Below are positions 1,116 through 23,200 of a stretch of DNA of 24,885 bases, one piece after another (the first letter of the stretch is position 1; every line of letters begins with the position of its first letter). The stretch is taken from IMG/VR virus record IMGVR_UViG_3300050821_004154, positions 1 to 24,885 of that record; one strand, written 5' to 3'. The stretch comes from a virus. The notes under the pieces are model-generated. The model was not told the DNA's origin and did no database searches. It saw only the letters and a list, made by a program, of their open reading frames with translations. A program made the position numbers and the translations under genes.

Positions 1116-1312
1116 AGGCATGGTGGCGATGGATGAATGGCGATGATCCTCTCTGGTTTCACCACTTGATTCACGGAGGTCCTTCCCTTTCGGAAATCTG
1201 GAAGACTCGGGACTGGGGGCATGATTGCGCCGAGCGTGGATGCCTCCTCGCCAAAACGGGGTTAGACAGTGTAACTAAATCAGATTCTGAGGGGTCTAAA
1301 CAAAGTGGCTAA
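1103..1312 (+). CDS. Small hypothetical protein (69 aa) containing repeat copy 1
   Basis: Not recognised. GTG start overlapping the last 13 bases of the polymerase gene, with a weak AAAGG-type ribosome site just upstream; an in-frame ATG at 1133 is an alternative. The N-terminal half is rich in Trp and His (WWRW, WFHHLIHGG) and is followed by HDCAERGC, so metal binding is conceivable but unproven. The last third (LLAKTGLD) is encoded by an antisense copy of the bipartite repeat, and the same residues recur in the histidine phosphatase for the same reason. Its position in an unbroken chain of overlapping rightward genes supports it being real. Confidence 0.55.
   Translation: MGRLKAWWRWMNGDDPLWFHHLIHGGPSLSEIWKTRDWGHDCAERGCLLAKTGLDSVTKSDSEGSKQSG
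1243..1265 (-). repeat. Bipartite repeat copy 1 (antisense, near a gene end)
   Basis: On the minus strand reads TAACCCCGTTTTGGCGAGGA (the same 20 bases as copy 4), flanked by extra matches. It lies in the last third of the rightward gene at 1103-1312, where it encodes LLAKTGLD. Confidence 0.85.
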
Positions 1313-3725: not shown

Positions 3726-4180
3726 TTGAAGAGAATCCGGAGCTTGAAGGAATTATTGAACGACCTGAACTTCTTAAATTAGATCAGCGCGGTTGGAAGG
3801 TTGTGCCATTGGGTCATGCCTATAAATTAGGCGAATTAAATGTGATTCACGGAGAAATTCTCACAGGAATCGGCAATCAAGCTGGTGCCTTTCCCGCTAA
3901 GAAAGCAATAGAATTTTACGCCGGCAATGTACTGGCGGGGCACACTCACGCGCCACAATCTTTCACCAAGATTTCTCCTGTGGAAGCAAAAAAGAAATAT
4001 ATGGCCTGGATATCTCCGATTGTCGGAGCCACCAACCCTGGCTACCTTCGCAACCGGCCAACTGCCTGGCTGAATGGCTTCACGATCGTTGAACTGCGGG
4101 ATAAGGGGTTCTTCAACCTCTATCCGGTGGTGGTGTTTGACGGGGAGTTTAGTTATGGCGGAAAGTTGTACAAAGGATAA
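3413..4180 (+). CDS. Calcineurin-like metallophosphoesterase
   Basis: Two-metal phosphoesterase (255 aa), by family a phosphatase, nuclease or nucleotide hydrolase; the substrate cannot be told. All signature blocks are present: FDIH (D12, H14), GGDQLDN (D43, D46), GNHCDWE (N96, H97), VIHGE (H146) and GHTHAPQ (H177, H179). The start is ATG at 3413 because AAGGAG (3402-3407) sits five bases upstream, the best ribosome site in the left arm; the frame is open further upstream but that part overlaps the HNH domain. Its stop TAA is also the first triplet of repeat copy 2. It overlaps the HNH reading frame by 313 bases. Confidence 0.93.
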   Translation: MSKPKTWVCLFDIHYPKYDKRTFNAAMQFIRDSKPAGILLGGDQLDNEEISHHNRNKPLYRERASYRRNSEGFDRDILRPLEEAVGRGEKVWIIGNHCDWERQLIEENPELEGIIERPELLKLDQRGWKVVPLGHAYKLGELNVIHGEILTGIGNQAGAFPAKKAIEFYAGNVLAGHTHAPQSFTKISPVEAKKKYMAWISPIVGATNPGYLRNRPTAWLNGFTIVELRDKGFFNLYPVVVFDGEFSYGGKLYKG

Positions 4181-4199
4181 CCCCGTTTATGCGAGGAGA
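4178..4199 (+). repeat. Bipartite repeat copy 2 (sense, bridging stop and start)
   Basis: TAACCCCGTTTATGCGAGGA. The first triplet is the stop of the phosphoesterase and the internal ATG is the start of the HD phosphohydrolase. Identical over 20 bases to copy 5. Confidence 0.92.
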
Positions 4200-4806
4200 T
4201 CAGGAATATATTCGAACCTATATAGGCCACAAATGCTGGCCATGTGATCCCCAGCCTGAAGATATCCACATCGAAGATATCGCTCATGCGCTTAGCCTGC
4301 TGTGTCGATTCACCGGGCACGTTCGCGAGTTCTACTCGGTCGGAGATCATAGTCTAAGGGTCTCCGAGTTGTGCTCGCCAGAGAACAAACTCTGGGGTTT
4401 GCTGCATGACGCGAGCGAGGCGTACTTGGCGGATGTGGCTCGACCCGTGAAGCGGAACGAAGTATTCGGGGCTTACTACAAGAAGGTAGAGGCGGGGTTG
4501 ATGGCCGTCATCGCCCAGAAGTTCAATCTGTCAATGCCTGAACCCCCGGAGGTTAAGACCTTTGACAACATCCTGCTTCGAACGGAGCAGCGAGACTTGA
4601 TGCCAGTCGCTAAAGACGGGCCAATAGGAGACAATGATAGATGGAAGGACTCGGTGGAACCGCTACCATACAGGCTAGTACCCAGGCCGCCGGAGGAAAC
4701 AGAGGAGTTGTTTCTAGATCAGTTCAAGCAGCTCAGCAAAAAGCCTCCAAGGTCCCAGCTTGGCAAGGAGTCGTGGCGTATTTCCCTAACGCCCTTCTTG
4801 CCGTAG
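4189..4806 (+). CDS. HD-domain phosphohydrolase (YfbR/nucleotidase-like)
   Basis: Predicted metal-dependent nucleotide or deoxynucleotide phosphohydrolase (205 aa) adjusting nucleotide pools during replication. The metal site is clear: DHS (H54), LLHDASEAYL (H73, D74) and FDNILLRTEQRDLM (D126). This architecture (IRTYIGH...IEDIAHALSLLCRFTGH) is common in phage and bacterial HD proteins related to YfbR, a fold also used by the dATPase DatZ of Z-genome phages. The ATG at 4189 lies inside repeat copy 2, eight bases after the phosphoesterase stop; the nearest purine-rich ribosome site (AAAGGA, 4173-4178) is eleven bases away. The last 166 bases overlap the next gene, and the conserved part ends near FLDQFKQL (about 4735). 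Confidence 0.9.
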   Translation: MRGDQEYIRTYIGHKCWPCDPQPEDIHIEDIAHALSLLCRFTGHVREFYSVGDHSLRVSELCSPENKLWGLLHDASEAYLADVARPVKRNEVFGAYYKKVEAGLMAVIAQKFNLSMPEPPEVKTFDNILLRTEQRDLMPVAKDGPIGDNDRWKDSVEPLPYRLVPRPPEETEELFLDQFKQLSKKPPRSQLGKESWRISLTPFLP

Positions 4807-5036: not shown

Positions 5037-5055
5037 ACGTTAGCGTCGCAACAAA

Positions 5056-5080
5056 AAAGCCCCCAGAATCTGGGGGCTTT
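5056..5080. terminator. Bidirectional rho-independent terminator
   Basis: An 8-bp GC stem (5059-5066 GCCCCCAG pairing with 5070-5077 CTGGGGGC, loop AAT) is extended by three A-U pairs. Six A before it give a U run for leftward transcripts, and TTTCGTGTTT follows for rightward ones. It lies between the converging last genes of the early and late operons, exactly where both need to stop. Confidence 0.93.
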
Positions 5081-5097
5081 CGTGTTTCTAGCTGCTG

Positions 5098-5412
5098 CTA
5101 CAGCTGAAGCTTAAATGGGTTGAAGTCTTTTTCGACTAGTTCTCGTTCATCAAGGATTCGATAAAAGCGGCGACCATATTCAATGATGGTTTCAATGCTA
5201 GTCTTCTTCCAACCCTTTTTGATCAACCACTGCTTGAATTCCAGGACATCGGAACGGAATATGTCGCGAGGCTTTCTATCTGGGCCAAAGAACTTTATGA
5301 AGGTTTCGTAGGCCTTGGCCGCCCACATCCAAGTGCCGCGCTTCTTGTACCAGTACTGCGATTCCCAGAGGAGTTGGAGGTCGCGAAGTGATGGATCAGG
5401 AGGAAGGATCAT
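5098..5412 (-). CDS. Orphan tyrosine-recombinase core-binding (SAM-like) domain protein
   Basis: A 104-aa protein resembling the N-terminal DNA-binding domain of phage integrases. It has a helix YWYKKRGTWMWAAKAYETFI (20-39), then FFGPDRKPRDIFRSDVLEFKQWL (41-63), GWKKTSIETIIEYGRRFYRIL (67-87) and a terminal NPFKLQL. No catalytic domain (R...HxxR...Y) follows: the gene stops at 5098 and the terminator starts about 20 bases later. It may bind DNA on its own, for example as a regulator or a directionality or packaging factor, or be a remnant. No good ribosome site precedes the ATG; a 10-bp hairpin (5422-5453) sits just upstream. It is last in the late operon. Fold call is by pattern only. Confidence 0.65.
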   Translation of the reverse strand: MILPPDPSLRDLQLLWESQYWYKKRGTWMWAAKAYETFIKFFGPDRKPRDIFRSDVLEFKQWLIKKGWKKTSIETIIEYGRRFYRILDERELVEKDFNPFKLQL

Positions 5413-5453: not shown

Positions 5454-5511
5454 AGTCAGGTGGTCACAGTAGGACCTCCTATTAGTTTAGACCCTCCGAA
5501 AGATCAAAAGG

Positions 5512-8500
5512 TTACTGACCAGTAAAATCTTTCATAAACTGTGCCCGTTGCTCGGGCAGAAGCCGGGTGGTGTCCAGTTCCTTGCGGGCGTAGGCGTTCA
5601 AGATAGCGCGCTCCTTCGGAGTCGCCTTGGCGAACACCTTGGCTTTCAGCTCAACTGGCAGGCGATAGTAGTCGCGGTATATCTCTGGCATCATGGCAAG
5701 CTTGATAGCCGTCTGAAGGTCCTTGGGATTCATCTGACCCGAGAGAATTAACTCCCGAACTCGTTTGGCATCGAGGCGATTTTCTGAAATGTCCTGAACG
5801 ATTTCTTGAATATGATGGCTAGTGATGTCATTTGGGTTGGAGCCAAGAGCGTATTGATGAGCTAAGGCAGCAGCATCGGAACGATATTTTGAACGAGTAA
5901 TTCCGAAACTAGACATTGCGCCAGTCTCTAAACGATCTACGGTGCGACCTTCGCCTCCGCTTCGTGTAAAACTTTGAAGTGGAATCGGTACTACACCTTT
6001 GACAAAGTCAATGGCTTGACCTCCGAGATCACGCTTGCGACCGAAGTCGTCCTTGCCGAACATCATCTCACCGAGAGGCTTAGTCATTGTTGGGTTAAGA
6101 CGATGCATTACAAAGCTCGAAGGTTCCTGAAGTAAGTTCCAAATATCTCCTGGTAAGCTACGCATTTTATATTCGTAGCCTTTAATCACGAGAGAAAACG
6201 GGCGGTCCCAATGCGGATCATCGTCCAGGACTTGATTTACAACACGAGCACTGACATACAATCCAACGGCGCCTCGAATCAATGCGGCTTGTTGTTCACG
6301 GCCAAAGGGGGTTAAAGCTTGGCCCGCAAAGCGAGCCCGAGCTTCAAGGAAATCTGGCGCAAGGAAAGCGAAACGAAGTAAAGCCTGTGTTTGAGGGCTA
6401 CGGCCCATTGTGATGTAATTCAGTTCTCCGAAGGCAGCATTGGCTTGATTTGAAGTAATTTCTGCAATTTGATTCGTGGTGATCTTACCAGCTTGAATAG
6501 CTCCGTCAAAACGTTTCAGATTCCGATCATAAGCTTCGACTGCCATTTGAGTTTTCAAACGCGGAATATAATCCCCGAAAAGATAGTCACTGTATTTCTG
6601 GAGATACTGGCCTAGTCCGGGGACTTTTCCAGCGAGACCTCCCGCCGCAAGACCTTCATCGAAAGCGGCAGCCGGATCGAAGTTTCCGATTACAAGGCCA
6701 TGATCTAAAAGCCTCCCCACGCGAGGATCGGCCAGATCAATTGCCTTCGGATTGAAAGGATTAACTTTGTGAAATAAAGCGTGCGTACCTTCTTGAATCT
6801 GGTGAAAAGGAGACATCGACAAGAGCGTAGCTTTGAAGAATCCCGAGCCTTTCAAAAGGGCGGTTTGAACTGGATGAGCCTGCGCCCACTTGCCTCGATT
6901 GATAACATTGTCAAGCTTCTGCGCATGATCAGGGTGAACCCGGAGGTCCCCCTTCATGAAGATGGGAGTCCCGTCAGCATCCTTTGTAGCCCAGGTCCAC
7001 TTAGTGAGAGCGGAGTGATCCAGAAGGCGGTAATCACCTGTCTCATCAGGGCCGGCTTTCGGGTAGATTACATACGCGGATGGCTTCTCACCCGTCTCAG
7101 GTGATTGGCTGCCAGTTTCATAAATTGCTTTGCCAGTGCCGGAGGGAGCGACAATTGGACGACCATCTTTGGCGAGGCCGGCAGATAAGTCTCGAACAAG
7201 AGTTCGAGAAGCTATCGCCTGATTGAATGCTTTGTCCCATGAGGCCACGAGGAAGCCAATGTCCTTGTTAACAGGAGTGTGACCAGCTTGTTCCCCCTCG
7301 AAGTAAGATTCGAATACCCGGCGTTTAGCGGCATTGAAATCAGTCTTCAAAAGACCAGAGCGATGCAGAACTGAAAAGAAGTTTTGCATGTTCTGTTGGT
7401 CTTTGGGCTTCCAAATTTGCGGAACATAATTATCAAGTCCGTCCTTAAGGACATCCATCTGGATGGCCTCTTTGAGGCGGCGTTCGAAATGGTTTTGAAT
7501 AAAACCGGCAAGATTCTTTTCATCGTCGGTCAGTGCGCGAGCGGCCTCATAGCCCGCACGAAGGGAACCCTTCGAACGAGTAGCTCGATCAGCTAGAATC
7601 GCATCATCGCCCCCGGCTTGAATCCAATTCGTAATGGCCTCGCGTCGGCGAGGCTCGGGGAGTTTCTCCTTGATGGCCTTAGTGAATTGACGCAATTCCC
7701 AAACGGAACGATTCAAGGCTCCACTGAAACGACCAATCGAAGTATTATAATCGCCTTGCTCTGGTGGTCGCATGTACATGTCTTTCAGGGCTACGGCTTG
7801 CGCGCCCATCCGGCCAATAGACATCTGAACCTTATCCCAACCTTCGGTGATGGTTTTATCCAGACGTTCTGCGAGACGCATTCGACTATCATCCGGAGGG
7901 ACTGCTTTCATCGAAGATTCAAGTTTTGCGGTTAGATCATCGAGGGCATTGACGCTTTGGCGAGGCGGTCTGGGTTTCTTGTCCGGGAACATCGTCCAGA
8001 ACCCACGCTCGTCCTTGAGGTTGAACATGCGTTCCAGTTCTTCGCGAGCGGGGTCTTTAATGCCAGGAATTTCAGGAGTACCAACAGGCCCGGCTTCCAC
8101 CCCCTCAAATCTCGCAGCCGTCAATGTACGGCCTTGATTATCACGAGAAAATCGCAAGGCTATCCCGTCGCCACGATCATTCTTAAAATATTTTATTAGC
8201 TCGCCGTTGGTTCCGGTTTCTGCGCGATCAAGCCGAAATCCGTGTTCTCTGATTGTCCGAACCGTCTCGTAACTATCTTTTGGATTGATTACTTCCCGAA
8301 GTAATTTACCATCGAAGGCTGCTCGCTGATTTTGTTCAGAGCGTTCTACGTCCGGATGTTTTGACAGGGCCCGATCAACCATGTCATGCAACCCGCCAAG
8401 CAAACTATCCGCCTTGCGGTCCAGCTCTGCATTCGGTTCGAGACGCTCCTCAATTGGAGACTTCTCCGGCGTCTTCGCAAACTCCGCCCCTCCCGCCATT

Positions 8501-10401
8501 CGCTGGATGATGTCGTCGTGCGACATATCAAATATCTTCGTGAGAACCTTGTAGGCCTGATCCAAAGCCTCGGGCGAGGACTTCTCGTCGCGAAGCACGT
8601 CCAGATAGATTTTCATCCGGGCCTCGCGGCCTCCGGGTCCCCAACCAGCCCCACTGCTTCCACCAAGACTTCCTCGTTCCTTTTGCATGGCTTCAGCCAC
8701 GAATCGCTTCGCGGTTCCTTCGGCCATGTTAGGATGGCGCTTAAGATATTCCTGGACACGTTGATCAAACACCGCCTTATCAGGAAGGGCGGGAGTCTTA
8801 GCGGCGGGAGGTTGAGGCGGACGTTCCCCTAAATCTCCTCGCCGAGAACGGGGTTCGGGAGAGGGGGCAGTAGAAAAACCCACTTTCTCTTGAAGCTTGG
8901 GAGCCTGAGCAGGAGGTTGGGATGCGATAAGGTCTTCAGCCTGTTTCTTCTGCTTCACTACGAAGTCTCCCTCTAACGAGGACTTCTCGGTGGTACGAAC
9001 GGGTTCTCCTGGTCTCTTGGTCGCTTCGGGGGTCTGAACGGGTTTTGTTTCGAACTGGGTCCCCGAGGGGCCCGGTTTACTTCCCCCCACTTCGGGACGC
9101 TTGGTCTGGAAGGCCCGAGCGATCTCATCGGCATGTTGAGGATACTCCTTCATTAAGGTGGCAACTTGTTCGGGTTCCGTAAGCCCTTCCTGGCGAAGCT
9201 GCATCCCACGGCGGAACACATCTTCAACAAACATGTTTTCAGGGGCGCGTTTGACTTCTTTCGAAGTAATACCTGCAACTTCTTTAATCTTTGCGACTCG
9301 GTCTTGAACTGAAGGTTCCTTAACTTCAAGGTCCACCGGTTGATTTTTTAAAACTTTAGGTTTAACAACCTCCGGCGGTTTAGCCGTTTCAATCGGTTTA
9401 GGTTTCAATTGCTCAACCTTTTCAGGTTGCGTCATCGGACGAGTTTGCGTTTTAGCAATTTCAGCTTGATGTGTTTGTTCTAATTGAGCCTGAAGGTCTT
9501 TAATCTTAGCGTGAACATCTGGTTCGGTTGGAATTGGTTTTGATTCAGGAAGTTTAGCTTCCGCATGTTTGCCAAATTGTTCTGGAAGTTGTTCATCGCG
9601 ATTTGCAAATAATCCACTTTGAGCTGCTTTGATTACAACTTGGGCAGCGGTCTTACTAAGTTCTGGTAACGTATTTCCTTTGGCAATATCAATCTGAACT
9701 TTAGCTTCGGCTGCTTTCTGAAGCGCAGCTTCATCAACTTGACCGCCCGCTGGCCGAGCCGCACGAAGATCGCCTTTAGCGTTTTCAACTGCTTGTGAAT
9801 ATTTGCCTTTTAAAAATTCTTCAGCGCCGCCGACACCAGCTCCAGTTAAACTGCCAATCTCATTCCAGAATTGTTGCGCTTCTGGGCTACCACCTAAAAC
9901 CTTTGAAAGTTTTCCGGCTCCGTATCCACCAACCATAGACCCAGCAAAGGCTTTCACTGCTCCGGTTGGAGAAGCCACAGCTCCCGCCAGCATCATAGGA
10001 GTTGCGGTTTCAAAAGCACCGCTGATGGCTTTAGCTCCGCCTTGATAGATATCTTTACGTCCACCTTCGGCCATTTGCTCTACGCCTTGTGCCATTTGCC
10101 CAGGGCCATAAACACCAGACCATTCAGGAGTTGGGCGGCGCTGAATTGGTTGCATATCCGGACTTAAAAATTGTCGGCCAACTGGTGCATAATCAGATGC
10201 TTTATCAGACCAGAATGAATGTTCTGGTGGAATCGAAGGCTTCCCTGGAGCGCTCGCAAGAGCAGCATTGACCTCCGGAAGATATTGTTTCGGACGCCAT
10301 GCTTGTTCCATTTTGGCAACAGCCGCATCCTGAGATGCGGCTTGAGCTTTATACCATTGGCCGTCGGGGCCTTGTTTGGTGTACCACTGATCAGTAGGCA
10401 T
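5512..10401 (-). CDS. Giant internal virion / DNA-ejection protein candidate (1629 aa)
   Basis: By size and position (after nozzle and tail genes, at the end of the late operon) this is most likely an internal virion protein ejected with the DNA, comparable in role to T7 gp16; I see no lysozyme or transglycosylase motif. Layout: a WYTKQGPDGQWYKA opening (5-19); a Gly/Ala-rich hydrophobic segment (about 133-170) that could cross a membrane; a long low-complexity Lys/Pro/Glu region (about 280-560); and a helical, aromatic-rich C-terminal two thirds (about 650-1629) with segments such as GFLVASWDKAFNQAIASR. ATG overlaps the previous stop as TAATG. Base composition changes inside the gene (see findings). 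Repeat copy 7 lies inside it. Confidence 0.75.
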   Translation of the reverse strand: MPTDQWYTKQGPDGQWYKAQAASQDAAVAKMEQAWRPKQYLPEVNAALASAPGKPSIPPEHSFWSDKASDYAPVGRQFLSPDMQPIQRRPTPEWSGVYGPGQMAQGVEQMAEGGRKDIYQGGAKAISGAFETATPMMLAGAVASPTGAVKAFAGSMVGGYGAGKLSKVLGGSPEAQQFWNEIGSLTGAGVGGAEEFLKGKYSQAVENAKGDLRAARPAGGQVDEAALQKAAEAKVQIDIAKGNTLPELSKTAAQVVIKAAQSGLFANRDEQLPEQFGKHAEAKLPESKPIPTEPDVHAKIKDLQAQLEQTHQAEIAKTQTRPMTQPEKVEQLKPKPIETAKPPEVVKPKVLKNQPVDLEVKEPSVQDRVAKIKEVAGITSKEVKRAPENMFVEDVFRRGMQLRQEGLTEPEQVATLMKEYPQHADEIARAFQTKRPEVGGSKPGPSGTQFETKPVQTPEATKRPGEPVRTTEKSSLEGDFVVKQKKQAEDLIASQPPAQAPKLQEKVGFSTAPSPEPRSRRGDLGERPPQPPAAKTPALPDKAVFDQRVQEYLKRHPNMAEGTAKRFVAEAMQKERGSLGGSSGAGWGPGGREARMKIYLDVLRDEKSSPEALDQAYKVLTKIFDMSHDDIIQRMAGGAEFAKTPEKSPIEERLEPNAELDRKADSLLGGLHDMVDRALSKHPDVERSEQNQRAAFDGKLLREVINPKDSYETVRTIREHGFRLDRAETGTNGELIKYFKNDRGDGIALRFSRDNQGRTLTAARFEGVEAGPVGTPEIPGIKDPAREELERMFNLKDERGFWTMFPDKKPRPPRQSVNALDDLTAKLESSMKAVPPDDSRMRLAERLDKTITEGWDKVQMSIGRMGAQAVALKDMYMRPPEQGDYNTSIGRFSGALNRSVWELRQFTKAIKEKLPEPRRREAITNWIQAGGDDAILADRATRSKGSLRAGYEAARALTDDEKNLAGFIQNHFERRLKEAIQMDVLKDGLDNYVPQIWKPKDQQNMQNFFSVLHRSGLLKTDFNAAKRRVFESYFEGEQAGHTPVNKDIGFLVASWDKAFNQAIASRTLVRDLSAGLAKDGRPIVAPSGTGKAIYETGSQSPETGEKPSAYVIYPKAGPDETGDYRLLDHSALTKWTWATKDADGTPIFMKGDLRVHPDHAQKLDNVINRGKWAQAHPVQTALLKGSGFFKATLLSMSPFHQIQEGTHALFHKVNPFNPKAIDLADPRVGRLLDHGLVIGNFDPAAAFDEGLAAGGLAGKVPGLGQYLQKYSDYLFGDYIPRLKTQMAVEAYDRNLKRFDGAIQAGKITTNQIAEITSNQANAAFGELNYITMGRSPQTQALLRFAFLAPDFLEARARFAGQALTPFGREQQAALIRGAVGLYVSARVVNQVLDDDPHWDRPFSLVIKGYEYKMRSLPGDIWNLLQEPSSFVMHRLNPTMTKPLGEMMFGKDDFGRKRDLGGQAIDFVKGVVPIPLQSFTRSGGEGRTVDRLETGAMSSFGITRSKYRSDAAALAHQYALGSNPNDITSHHIQEIVQDISENRLDAKRVRELILSGQMNPKDLQTAIKLAMMPEIYRDYYRLPVELKAKVFAKATPKERAILNAYARKELDTTRLLPEQRAQFMKDFTGQ
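8836..8856 (-). repeat. Bipartite repeat copy 7 (diverged, internal to the 1629-aa gene)
   Basis: On the minus strand GAACCCCGTT-CTCG-GCGAGGA: both arms nearly intact, spacer longer. It encodes PEPRSRRGD in the low-complexity part of the giant protein. Confidence 0.6.
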
Positions 10402-11675
10402 TATTGAACTACGTGCGGATTTTCTTGGGAGCCAAGCGAACCCCGTTTAGGCGAGGAGGTACCTTTTCCTTCCGGAGGCAATACCTGTGTCTGCGGATAT
10501 TGGTTTTTGAATTCAGCATTCGCTCCATCAATCTGTGCTTGAATGCCATCATTCTTCTGCTTAATGTAAGAGTCCACATCCTTGTCGGATACTAACATAT
10601 TGCTATCGCCCGAGGTGATTCGTTGAAAAAGAATGTCTTGGCGAGCAGCATCTCGATGTTGAGGATCGTCTTGTTTTAAGAGTTTTCCTTGGAGGCCTTT
10701 AATGTTTTCATCGTGCTGTTTTTGGGCGTCCTGGAGATTTTTGAAAGGTTGCTCCGCGTGTTCGCGAGCACCGGCGCCAGCTCCCATAACTTGAACCTTT
10801 TGGTTCTGAGCTTTCTGATTTGCAGTGGCGATTTGTTTTGGAGTTGCGGTATTCGGGTCCACCCCAGCGACTCGAAGCTGTTCGCGAGTGGCCACATCCA
10901 GATCGCCTTCCTGGCCCTTGCCTCTTCCGGGACCAGCCTCAAAGGCCCAGCCAGCAGGTGCGCCAGGAGTTTGATAAGAAGTTCGGCCATTGACGCCGAT
11001 GCTACCTTCTTGCCCAGGATGATAAAGATATGTGCCACCTTCTACGGGAACGGGTCGAGTGGCATTCAATTTATCTAGACCGAGTTGATTCTTTTCTGTT
11101 TCTAATTGAACACGATCACGTTGAATATCAGCTTCGTCGGAATAATGTTTTATTTGCGCTTGCCGTAAGAGACGTTGCTCGCCTACATCGCGAAGCCCTT
11201 CCAGCATTCCCGCCGATTCGAAAGGCCGAGCAAATTGTTGCCGGTAAAGACCTTCTTGAATCCGATGACCGCCAATCAAACCTTCGGCTACGCCTTGCAT
11301 AGATTCACCGGGAGTCATTCCACCATGGGAGGCGGCAAGGCTATACAGTCCGCCTTCAAGAGCATGAGATAATGTAGGGTGGTTGCCAAAGAATCCGGTG
11401 TTCGGAAGTAAGGTATTTTGTTTAACTTGACCAGCTTCCAGAGGTTGGACGCCTGCGGCTTTTGCTGCCGCATTCATAGCCGGATCATATGTGAACTGGC
11501 TATAATCCGGTTCATTGGCCATGTTAGCAAGTTGCCCAAGCATGGGATCACCAGACACACCTCTGCTACCATAAGGGCTTCGCATCCCTCGTTCGAAGGG
11601 AGTTTCAGAACGATTGGCTGCGGACATCATGCGGAGGTCCCAAAGGGAAGTCTGGCGCATATTGGGATTCAGCAT
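10401..11675 (-). CDS. Internal virion protein candidate (424 aa, or 434 aa from CTG)
   Basis: Not recognised by sequence. The protein has a Met/Asn/Gly-rich N-terminus (to about 120), a helical charged segment QRLLRQAQIKHYSDEADIQR (167-186), a long Gln/Lys-rich helical region (260-370) and an unstructured C-terminus encoded in part by repeat copy 3 (TSSPKRGSLGS). Its place between a glycine-rich protein and the giant protein suggests an ejection or tail-internal protein. The ATG at 11675 has no usable ribosome site, whereas a perfect AGGAGG (11714-11719) stands eight bases before an in-frame CTG at 11705; the true start may be that CTG, adding ten residues (DQYNPFQG included). Confidence 0.7.
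   Translation of the reverse strand: MLNPNMRQTSLWDLRMMSAANRSETPFERGMRSPYGSRGVSGDPMLGQLANMANEPDYSQFTYDPAMNAAAKAAGVQPLEAGQVKQNTLLPNTGFFGNHPTLSHALEGGLYSLAASHGGMTPGESMQGVAEGLIGGHRIQEGLYRQQFARPFESAGMLEGLRDVGEQRLLRQAQIKHYSDEADIQRDRVQLETEKNQLGLDKLNATRPVPVEGGTYLYHPGQEGSIGVNGRTSYQTPGAPAGWAFEAGPGRGKGQEGDLDVATREQLRVAGVDPNTATPKQIATANQKAQNQKVQVMGAGAGAREHAEQPFKNLQDAQKQHDENIKGLQGKLLKQDDPQHRDAARQDILFQRITSGDSNMLVSDKDVDSYIKQKNDGIQAQIDGANAEFKNQYPQTQVLPPEGKGTSSPKRGSLGSQENPHVVQ
10438..10457 (+). repeat. Bipartite repeat copy 3 (antisense to gene, near its end)
   Basis: GAACCCCGTTTAGGCGAGGA on the plus strand, about 40 bases from the stop of the leftward 424-aa gene, where it encodes TSSPKRGS. Confidence 0.82.
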
Positions 11676-18425: not shown

Positions 18426-19088
18426 TTATCTGATCACTCCCATACGATTACCGGCTTTGAGTTGCTGATACAATTGAAACCACGACATTGCTTCTTGCTG
18501 ACGACCAATATAAGCCATAGCTAGCCAGTTAACTCCTGCACATATTACATCCTTACCATCATCGGGAACAATCAAGGCCGCCGTTAAACTGGACAGTGTA
18601 GAAACTAATTTCTCATAAGTAACACTAAGAGTAGAAGTATATGCGGTCGAAAGAGGCGCAGGTCGAACAATAAATGTAGTTGGCCCGACAAAACGAAAGT
18701 ATTCGGGAGTTCCCCCAAACTTATAAGCCTGGTGAGGAAGAGGGGCCTGTTGAGCCGGACGCCCTTGAGATTCATCAACTCCTGCCGCAGTGGGACTTGG
18801 TTGATCAAGATCGACATCTGCCGGAGTTAAGCTTTGATTAAAGGTAGTATCGAAAACACTTACAATTCGACGAATTGGAGTAGTCGGCGTTAAAGTATAA
18901 GCATTCTGCTCGGCAATAGTAGTAACAAAGGTTGTAGTCAAGTTCTGATTTACATACAAAGTAGTATGCAATACATCCTTATGAACTCGGTCCACCCAGT
19001 TCATAATAGTGACAGCATCATTACCAGAGTTCGAAAGAACCTGTCGAGTATCTACGTTAACTGCATTTACAATATCTTGAACTATCAT
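18426..19088 (-). CDS. Adaptor (tail tubular A-like) protein, paralog 1 (220 aa)
   Basis: Compact version of the adaptor fold. The N-terminal helices are DIVNAVNVDTRQVLSNSG and IMNWVDRVHKDVLHTTLY, followed by a beta region (50-170) and the C-terminal helical block VICAGVNWLAMAYIGRQQEAMSWFQLYQQL (181-210) shared with the following gene. Likely forms the ring beneath the portal. Overlaps the histidine phosphatase stop (ATGA). Two neighbouring paralogs suggest a duplicated or hetero-oligomeric ring. Confidence 0.82.
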   Translation of the reverse strand: MIVQDIVNAVNVDTRQVLSNSGNDAVTIMNWVDRVHKDVLHTTLYVNQNLTTTFVTTIAEQNAYTLTPTTPIRRIVSVFDTTFNQSLTPADVDLDQPSPTAAGVDESQGRPAQQAPLPHQAYKFGGTPEYFRFVGPTTFIVRPAPLSTAYTSTLSVTYEKLVSTLSSLTAALIVPDDGKDVICAGVNWLAMAYIGRQQEAMSWFQLYQQLKAGNRMGVIR

Positions 19089-19666
19089 CGACCGTCCCAG
19101 ATCATAATATACTTCCAGTCTAACCCCGTTTTGGCGAGGAATGTCACGCTGGCCTCGGGAGTTATCTCCTGAACATCCCCTACGGGGTTGCCCCCAATGA
19201 TGCTTTGTAATGCATTGATATTTCTAGAATGCGTTGTAATGCAAACCGCTTCGTCTTTAGCCTCGACATAGGCCATAACTTTCTGAAGGAAATCCTGCCA
19301 CCGGAGGTAAAACCTCCGATAAGATTCGCCATGCGGAGCCTTGATGTCCGGGTAGTTCTTTAGATATTCCATCTTGTCTTTGACTTGGCGGGCCTCCTTG
19401 CCCATCAAATCTCCGAGGTTCCAAGGCAGCGCCCCGTTGTTCGTCGTGACTCGTGTGTCGCCATGACTGATCATTTCAGCCACTCGGAGGGCTCGCTGGA
19501 GCGGGGAACTGATAATTCGGGAGAATCGGAGGTTCTCTTTCTCCAAGAATTTGACCGTCCGTTCGATCCGTTCGACTCCCTCTCGGTCGAGAGGCGGATT
19601 CAAAAGGGCATCGACCTTGGTGTCATAGGTCGTGTTGCCGTGGCGAATCAAATAAATTCCTCGCAT
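19085..19666 (-). CDS. Histidine phosphatase superfamily (phosphoglycerate mutase-like)
   Basis: Phosphatase of 193 aa. The RHG catalytic motif sits at the very start (RGIYLIRHGNT, H9), SSPLQRALRVAEMI supplies the second arginine, GESYRRFYLRW the acid region, and CITTHSRNI the second catalytic His. Substrate unknown; nucleotide or sugar phosphates are typical. The start is taken as the ATG at 19666, giving the usual motif-at-residue-8 spacing; the frame is open upstream but overlaps the lysin gene. No Shine-Dalgarno precedes it; instead the ATG lies inside repeat copy 5, and copy 4 in inverted orientation encodes part of its C-terminus (TFLAKTGLDW). An unusual gene to find between capsid and adaptor genes. 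Confidence 0.9.
   Translation of the reverse strand: MRGIYLIRHGNTTYDTKVDALLNPPLDREGVERIERTVKFLEKENLRFSRIISSPLQRALRVAEMISHGDTRVTTNNGALPWNLGDLMGKEARQVKDKMEYLKNYPDIKAPHGESYRRFYLRWQDFLQKVMAYVEAKDEAVCITTHSRNINALQSIIGGNPVGDVQEITPEASVTFLAKTGLDWKYIMIWDGR
19121..19140 (+). repeat. Bipartite repeat copy 4 (antisense, end of histidine phosphatase gene)
   Basis: TAACCCCGTTTTGGCGAGGA, identical to copy 1. It is 36 bases inside the end of the leftward histidine phosphatase gene and forms an inverted pair with copy 5 at the gene's start. Confidence 0.88.
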
Positions 19667-19677
19667 AAACGGGGTTA
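19658..19677 (-). repeat. Bipartite repeat copy 5 (sense, bridging stop and start)
   Basis: On the minus strand TAACCCCGTTTATGCGAGGA, identical to copy 2. It contains the stop of the Tlde1-like gene and the ATG of the histidine phosphatase gene. Confidence 0.92.
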
Positions 19678-20040
19678 GGACGTGACGGTTAGATCGGTAT
19701 CGCCAGAGGAGGCAATCAGGTTTCGAAGGGGTCGTCCAAGGATAATGCAACCATCTGAGGCTGAATGATTCATAGCTGGGTTATCACCATGAATGAAAAA
19801 AGCCGATCGGCCAAACATCGTGTTGGTTGGCGATGGAGTTAAGGGCATCGCGAATTTCCCTACTTCATTGTCATCACGAGGTTGACCGATCGTATAGTTG
19901 CCTTGCGGAAGTGGACCCACGTCCTTGACGTTGCACATGGCGGGGTTGTTTAGGCCGTCGCCATGTCCGGAGTAACCAAGGCCGGCTTGGTTACCTTCGG
20001 CATCCAACAACGTTCCGGACGTGATTTTAAAAGTCCACAT
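19675..20040 (-). CDS. Tlde1-like (DUF2778) L,D-transpeptidase/carboxypeptidase, candidate lysin
   Basis: Short 121-aa enzyme: FKITSGTLLDAEGNQAGLGY, YSGHGDGLNNP, GPLPQGNYTI (42-51), FGRSAFFIHGD (76-86, H84) and SASDGCIILG (93-102, catalytic Cys98). This is the Tlde1 fold known from type VI effectors that cleave or exchange peptidoglycan stem peptides. Here it most likely acts as the phage's endolysin or a virion-associated cell-wall enzyme. No signal peptide, so export would need a holin (candidate at 12946-13149). ATG overlaps the preceding stop (TAATG); its own stop TAA is part of repeat copy 5. Confidence 0.85.
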   Translation of the reverse strand: MWTFKITSGTLLDAEGNQAGLGYSGHGDGLNNPAMCNVKDVGPLPQGNYTIGQPRDDNEVGKFAMPLTPSPTNTMFGRSAFFIHGDNPAMNHSASDGCIILGRPLRNLIASSGDTDLTVTS

Positions 20041-23066: not shown

Positions 23067-23077
23067 TTCTCCTCTTT

Positions 23078-23200
23078 CTAACCCCGTTTGTTGGCGAGGA
23101 GGGTTATAGCTATGACAACCGATGAAATGGCTATCACTATTTGAGACACTGATGCTGCGATATTTAACAGTGTTTCAAAGCCTATTTGCGCTTCCTGCAT
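23078..23200 (-). CDS. Single-pass membrane peptide (40 aa)
   Basis: Starts MQEAQIGFETLLNIAAS, with one hydrophobic helix (about 13-35, VSQIVIAISSVVIAITLL) and a short basic end ANKRG. ATG at 23200 has a clean AGGAG five bases upstream (23206-23210). Its stop TAG and the last codons (LLANKRG) are encoded by the antisense of repeat copy 6. The location after the portal gene is unusual for a membrane peptide; it could be a second holin-like, antiholin or ejection-related peptide. Function unknown. Confidence 0.78.
   Translation of the reverse strand: MQEAQIGFETLLNIAASVSQIVIAISSVVIAITLLANKRG
23079..23100 (+). repeat. Bipartite repeat copy 6 (antisense, at gene end)
   Basis: TAACCCCGTTT then GTTG (four-base spacer counting from the arm) then GCGAGGA. 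On the minus strand it encodes the last codons and the TAG stop of the 40-aa membrane peptide gene. Confidence 0.85.

Follow-up and report, generated by a model that had tools for sequence, protein, structure and literature searches.

Elements at two gene junctions and their relatives in the window

The window, that is, the whole 24,885-nt stretch analyzed here, carries an HD-hydrolase gene (4189 to 4806, plus strand) behind a phosphoesterase gene and a histidine phosphatase gene (19085 to 19669, minus strand) behind a Tlde1 gene. The same 20-mer, TAACCCCGTTTATGCGAGGA, lies at both junctions (4178 to 4197, plus strand, and 19658 to 19677, minus strand), and at each it spans the upstream TAA stop and an in-frame ATG-CGA-GGA, with GAGGA after the ATG, exactly as an earlier reading of the sequence alone had described. 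The chance expectation of this 20-mer in the window is 0, even with up to 3 mismatches allowed. Both exact copies are real, but the supposed two-copy element is a family of seven in the window and of about 90 in the clade. The 20-mer recurs with 2 mismatches at 1245 (minus), 10438 (plus), and 19121 (plus), these strands being those of the 20-mer, and a spacer-variant copy occupies 23074 to 23102. All seven window copies are directional and bipartite, and they have both arms in common; the five others differ from the exact copies in the center.

The copies are described here with the strand of the element, CCTCG arm first. Copy 1 (1246 to 1265, plus; CCTCG-CCAAAA-CGGGGTTAG) lies upstream of genes 28-27-35 (a small gene, a DUF3987 gene, and the phosphoesterase gene). 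Copy 2 (4177 to 4196, minus; CCTCG-CATAAA-CGGGGTTAT), the first of the exact sites, is antisense over the phosphoesterase stop and the HD-hydrolase start, the ATG of which it contains. Copy 3 (8837 to 8857, plus; CCTCG-CCGAGAA-CGGGGTTCG) is antisense within a gene for a 1629-aa protein, and copy 4 (10437 to 10456, minus; CCTCG-CCTAAA-CGGGGTTCG) precedes the start of that gene by 38 nt, within the end of the preceding gene. The histidine phosphatase gene is flanked by copy 5 (19120 to 19139, minus; CCTCG-CCAAAA-CGGGGTTAG), at its 3' end in a slot conserved in the related genomes G008, G010, G012, and G004, and by copy 6 (19659 to 19678, plus; CCTCG-CATAAA-CGGGGTTAG), the second exact site, which is antisense over the Tlde1 stop and the histidine phosphatase start and the slot of which is filled in several related genomes. 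Finally, copy 7 (23078 to 23099, minus; CCTCG-CCAACAAA-CGGGGTTAG) lies 14 nt before a small gene that precedes the capsid genes, in a slot filled in 8 of the 8 clade genomes that have this gene. The center CCAAAA is common to the copies at 1246 and 19123; the two exact copies are identical because they share the center CATAAA in addition to the arms.

The phage belongs to the phiEco32-like soil-phage group, which is almost exclusively metagenomic. The identity of its head protein with annotated phage records does not exceed about 34%, and the bacterial genome set searched for a host yielded no MCP relatives. The related genomes G004 and G008 also show a peptide-bond-making gene set in a leftward-transcribed region, consisting of three phiEco32-like COOH-NH2 ligases (G004, 48146 to 49141, 52650 to 54206, and 58536 to 59915), a glutamine amidotransferase (G004, 51622 to 52635), and a RimK-like ATP-grasp protein (G008, 58071 to 58805).

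Further copies were found by scanning viral contigs, and 62 loci of relatives were recruited via the major head protein. This yielded 89 distinct copies in related soil-phage contigs, with 12 to 18 copies per whole record of 66 to 68 kb in the window's clade (clade A). The consensus is (WAWYY)T-CCTCG-[CNNNNAA, 6-8 bp]-CGGGG-TTAG, in which two conserved arms of about 11 bp enclose a low-information center of 7 bp in most copies and of 6 or 8 bp elsewhere; measured from CCTCGC to ACGGGGT, the spacing is mostly 5 and otherwise 4 or 6, with a spacer that is free in sequence. The left arm is preceded by a T in 88% of the copies, inside an A/T-C/T-rich, G-poor hexamer. Outside the clade, the element is absent from those MCP relatives that were searched whole, and a match to the element pattern in L006 is probably due to chance.

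Placement of the elements relative to genes

A role in start-codon use or translational coupling is unsupported because four window copies are in the sense orientation 13 to 45 nt ahead of a start codon and the two exact copies are antisense, with their ATG falling in the variable center of the element. Across the clade, sense copies occupy the stop-to-next-start gap or the final codons of the preceding gene, many of them 4 to 18 nt ahead of start codons, and many antisense copies supply the stop of the upstream gene as CTAACCCC, the next gene starting within the element or a few bases past it. An ATG on the strand of the 20-mer is present in just 19 of the 89 distinct elements. The claim that neither gene at the two junctions has a good Shine-Dalgarno sequence holds for the histidine phosphatase, where the TAA-ATG distance is short enough for ordinary coupling, but not for the HD gene, in which AAGGA precedes the ATG by 11 nt.

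Three window copies (8837, 10440, and 19123) are situated within coding sequence. The first of these is kept inside the gene for the 1629-aa protein (gene 26) in four genomes, with the neighboring codons diverged, and at the end of the phosphatase gene four genomes have invariant CTC and GGG codons in the element, with variable synonymous positions on its flanks. Comparison of G008 with G007 shows an insertion of about 118 bp between the terminase stop and the element, which is therefore not tied to that stop.

Alternating orientation and bracketing of gene modules

Neighboring copies alternate in orientation in 84 of 107 pairs, compared with 0 of 5,000 shuffles, a result that, like the P values given below, is optimistic because the clade genomes are not independent; furthermore, several tests were chosen after the data had been seen. 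The elements bracket gene modules in this alternating orientation. The median distance is 1.2 kb in outward-pointing pairs, some of which are less than 100 bp apart, and 4.1 kb in inward pairs. Outward pairs recur around the terminase genes (G004, G005, G008, and G029) and around the phosphatase gene (the window, G008, G010, and G011).

Homology between related genomes often ends at elements. For example, at position 4200 of the window, matching 39811 of G011, a different gene follows the phosphoesterase, and genes 14 and 17 differ in place around elements between genomes. Gene adjacency is kept at 33% of the element junctions versus 47% elsewhere, and alignment ends fall within 30 bp of elements at roughly double the base rate, which is hardly more than at ordinary gene junctions. 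An element acting as a recombination hot spot was rejected, given that homology breaks are just modestly enriched relative to ordinary gene junctions. The sequence-only reading had suggested, alternatively, the joint left by a gene cassette; the alternating module brackets, the ends of homology at elements, and the recombinase-core-site architecture partly support this suggestion.

Site families in other lineages

Relatives that lack the window's element (G015, G025, G029, G024, and G016) carry site families of their own, which have other arms and, on alignment, the common plan arm-C-NNNN-AA-arm. The G029 family (CACCAGG-CNNNNAA-CCCCTC) has 22 members, 21 of them of length 7, and the G015 family (CCTAC-CTAAAAA-GGGGTT) has 9. 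Clade A slots are filled by elements of G029 (5 of 9 occupied slots; P = 0.007), almost always in the matching orientation, and in G025 an element lies 15 nt ahead of gene 8, which is exactly the clade arrangement. Such concerted change of whole site sets would need a protein that acts in trans and has a specificity of its own. The arms are weakly dyad symmetric, over no more than their inner 4 to 5 bp, which are nearly symmetric in clade A (CGAGG/CGGGG); in G025 the symmetry takes the form ACCC/GGGT, and in G029 and G015 it is weak or absent.

In G029, which encodes an intact recombinase, the centers are identical in 4 of 8 outward pairs versus 0 of 8 inward pairs (P = 0.0005), the pattern that strand exchange between sites would require; no center matching between paired sites was found in clade A. 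G029 also contains a long CTTCGCAGCA/CTCCGCAGCA tandem repeat (48906 to 49290).

The association between sites and recombinase has exceptions. G020 encodes a full recombinase, yet its repeat, AGTTGTCCCGGCGAGG, has no C-N4-AA center; G024 and G016 have sites and no 290-aa recombinase in the stretches examined, G024 having another integrase; and G023 has an orphan core-binding gene and no clear site family. By k-mer counts in the first 45 to 50 kb, phiEco32, 7-11, Rollin, Y3, and API480 show no obvious comparable family. In the cultured Pseudomonas phage Rollin (L163), whose head protein is a distant relative, AAAAGGTAGTAAC(T) occurs 4 to 6 times in the first 50 kb.

A tyrosine recombinase and an orphan core-binding domain

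A PF00589 tyrosine recombinase of about 290 aa, integrase/Xer-like by sequence, is encoded in G015, G025, G029, and G020; its gene is located behind the large virion gene 26 in G015, G025, and G020 and in the same neighborhood in G029. The same slot in the window, G004, G005, G008, and G011 holds the N-terminal core-binding domain alone (104 to 124 aa), and the clade A records yielded no convincing catalytic domain. The window protein (5098 to 5412, minus strand; 104 aa), a predicted orphan core-binding (SAM-like) domain of a tyrosine recombinase, is our candidate for the element-binding protein. Its AlphaFold2 model has a pLDDT of 90, and its Foldseek matches, none of which reaches an E value of 0.001, are almost all recombinase core-binding domains (TMq of about 0.6 to 0.8), the best being those of Tn1549, lambda, and XerA-type recombinases, with phi3T SroF lower. 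Pfam matches the orphan domain with weak E values (0.0043 in the case of the window protein). The pN/pS ratio of 0.33 to 0.45 among the closer four genomes (the window, G008, G011, and G004) suggests that the protein is maintained. Scans of IMG/VR with the core-binding and recombinase alignments added few contigs to those already known. A second, larger tyrosine recombinase (about 400 to 440 aa) is encoded in G015 (56890 to 58143), G025 (31586 to 32902), and G024 (163 to 1356), and none was seen in the window's clade; the lineages that carry it may be temperate.

Just upstream of the core-binding-domain gene is a promoter-like motif of the phage ECF-sigma type, GTAAC-N-GGGTCTAAAC (5485 to 5515, minus strand). 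A repeated motif of the form GTAAY-N-GGGTCTAAA occurs upstream of genes here (5515 to 5485, minus) and at 1271 to 1301 (plus) in the window, as well as in G004, G005, G008, and L007, and is arranged divergently ahead of the terminase genes. It is similar to the promoters used by the sigma factor of phage 7-11 (GTAAtg-16-aCTA; PMC8948821), and the clade encodes an ECF-like sigma factor (PF04542). A terminator-like hairpin (window 5050 to 5086; GCCCCCAGA-ATC-TGGGGGC region) lies between convergent genes.

Interpretation and alternatives

The explanation that we favor, and consider somewhat probable, is that the elements are core-type sites of a phage tyrosine recombinase that are now probably read by an orphan DNA-binding domain, similarly to SPBRE by MrpR; physical binding, past recombination, and a present regulatory role of the elements are what we infer from the genomic patterns. 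Each site would have a central region of 6 to 8 bp (C-N4-AA) between two recognition arms, each about 11 bp long, and the sites, scattered genome-wide in alternating orientation, would bracket gene modules. In those sister lineages that encode an intact Xer-like recombinase, strand exchange between center-matched sites could invert or exchange modules. In the window's clade, the enzyme appears to have been cut down to its DNA-binding domain, so that the sites are most likely bound and not recombined, and they may act at the ends of transcription units as operators or boundaries.

More tentatively, with the balance tilting somewhat against it, we propose that phiEco32-like soil phages possess an undescribed genome-organizing system, in which a phage's own Xer-like recombinase and about 8 to 22 alternating sites divide the whole genome, including the terminase and capsid genes, into bracketed segments, and the stand-alone core-binding domain of one clade still reads the old sites as boundary or control sites. 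If so, modular phage genomes would carry built-in, lineage-specific joint sites for their own recombinase, which bears on the organization of phage mosaicism; furthermore, loss of the catalytic half would be a second route, besides that of MrpR, from a recombinase to a genome-wide DNA-binding protein. Because sister lineages differ in whether they have the catalytic domain, this transition is testable.

A less likely reading, to which we would give perhaps a minor share of belief, is that the elements belong to an unrelated phage regulator, as operator- or stoperator-like or promoter-proximal sites, and that the recombinase-domain gene is coincidental. The sites keep their positions while their sequences change in concert, many sense copies closely precede start codons, as in the slot before the capsid genes, and the stoperators of cluster A mycobacteriophages are likewise dispersed, asymmetric, and lineage specific; stoperators, however, predominantly point in one direction relative to transcription, whereas the elements alternate (PMC6550527). 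Such a regulator would also leave the common 6- to 8-bp C-N4-AA center and the recombinase-family gene unexplained, and an HTH_3 match is absent from clade A. The stoperator repressor is not known to derive from a recombinase.

It is improbable that, as in the dif modules of Acinetobacter, the sites are still recombining in the window's clade, whether via the host Xer proteins or via a catalytic partner that escaped detection. Alternation, bracketing, the relocation of genes 14 and 17, and the homology breaks would all fit such activity, but clade A has no convincing catalytic domain, the arms are unlike those of pdif sites, the center length varies from 6 to 8 within one genome, and paired centers are unmatched. 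An RNA-level element, either an mRNA hairpin or sense and antisense copies that flank a module and pair in processing or stabilization, is very improbable: CCUCG and CGGGG could pair in the sense strand and opposite copies are complementary, but hairpin energies are near shuffled values, the S strands of G029 and G024 form no hairpin, the centers of flanking copies are unmatched in clade A, and there is no Rfam match. The nonstandard translation-initiation or coupling element proposed in the sequence-only reading can practically be dismissed, for although in both exact copies a TAA stop is followed within eight bases by an ATG, only 2 of the 7 window copies supply a start codon, the other 5 and most of the 89 do not, several copies are intragenic, and the slot ahead of the phosphatase gene in G010 and G011 reads TTGGAG where the window has ATG.

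Several known classes of elements were also considered and rejected. A promoter would require a second hexamer at promoter spacing, which the element lacks, and its orientation is not constant. No PF00940 match to a T7-type polymerase was obtained, but the control gave no match either, so this result is not decisive. REP/RAYT elements were rejected because no PF01797 match was found in 10 records (the control was positive in 5 genomes) and the hairpin is not conserved, and plasmid-type parS/ParB because the same number of records yielded no PF02195 match. An integron attC site, considered because of GTTAGAC, lacks its second half and is of the wrong size.

Comparison with known systems

The PeSL regulatory cassettes of T4-type phages, reportedly described by Arbiol et al. 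in 2010, are said to combine a promoter with a terminator stem-loop and to be repeated intergenically at module joints. The elements described here are similarly repeated at such joints, but unlike PeSLs, they show neither promoter nor terminator stem-loop. The SAS and ESAS repeats of cluster K mycobacteriophages also lie near start codons, and ESAS are inverted repeats with a variable spacer; SAS, however, are start-codon associated and mostly in one orientation, whereas the window elements are neither (PMC3203893).

The closest parallels are with two recombinase-related systems. Alternating sites with free centers that bracket modules are the signature of the Xer dif/pdif modules of Acinetobacter plasmids, in which many short bipartite sites with a variable center alternate as C/D and D/C and bracket modules, including one without an ORF (PMC13141974, PMC6449649). 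The 6- to 8-bp center of the elements matches the center length of the dif family. Unlike pdif modules, the elements are located in phage genomes, around core genes such as those for terminase and capsid; their CCTCG/CGGGG arms are lineage specific and bear no resemblance to XerC/XerD-type pdif arms; the recombinase is phage encoded or reduced to a DNA-binding domain; and the center is 6 to 8 bp rather than 6. MrpR (YopR) of the Bacillus phage SPbeta has a tyrosine-recombinase fold, has lost recombination, and binds the dispersed SPBRE (PMC10516654). Clade A similarly pairs a recombinase-fold protein without catalysis with a dispersed phage element, for which binding or repression by the window protein is putative; however, MrpR keeps the catalytic-fold CAT domain, whereas the window protein is a core-binding domain alone, and SPBRE, unlike the window element, is a promoter-region motif of 15 bp (PMC10516654). 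Since the arms are not pdif-like and repression by the window protein is only putative, the window's system is by test a member of neither; it combines features of dif modules with those of MrpR and SPBRE.
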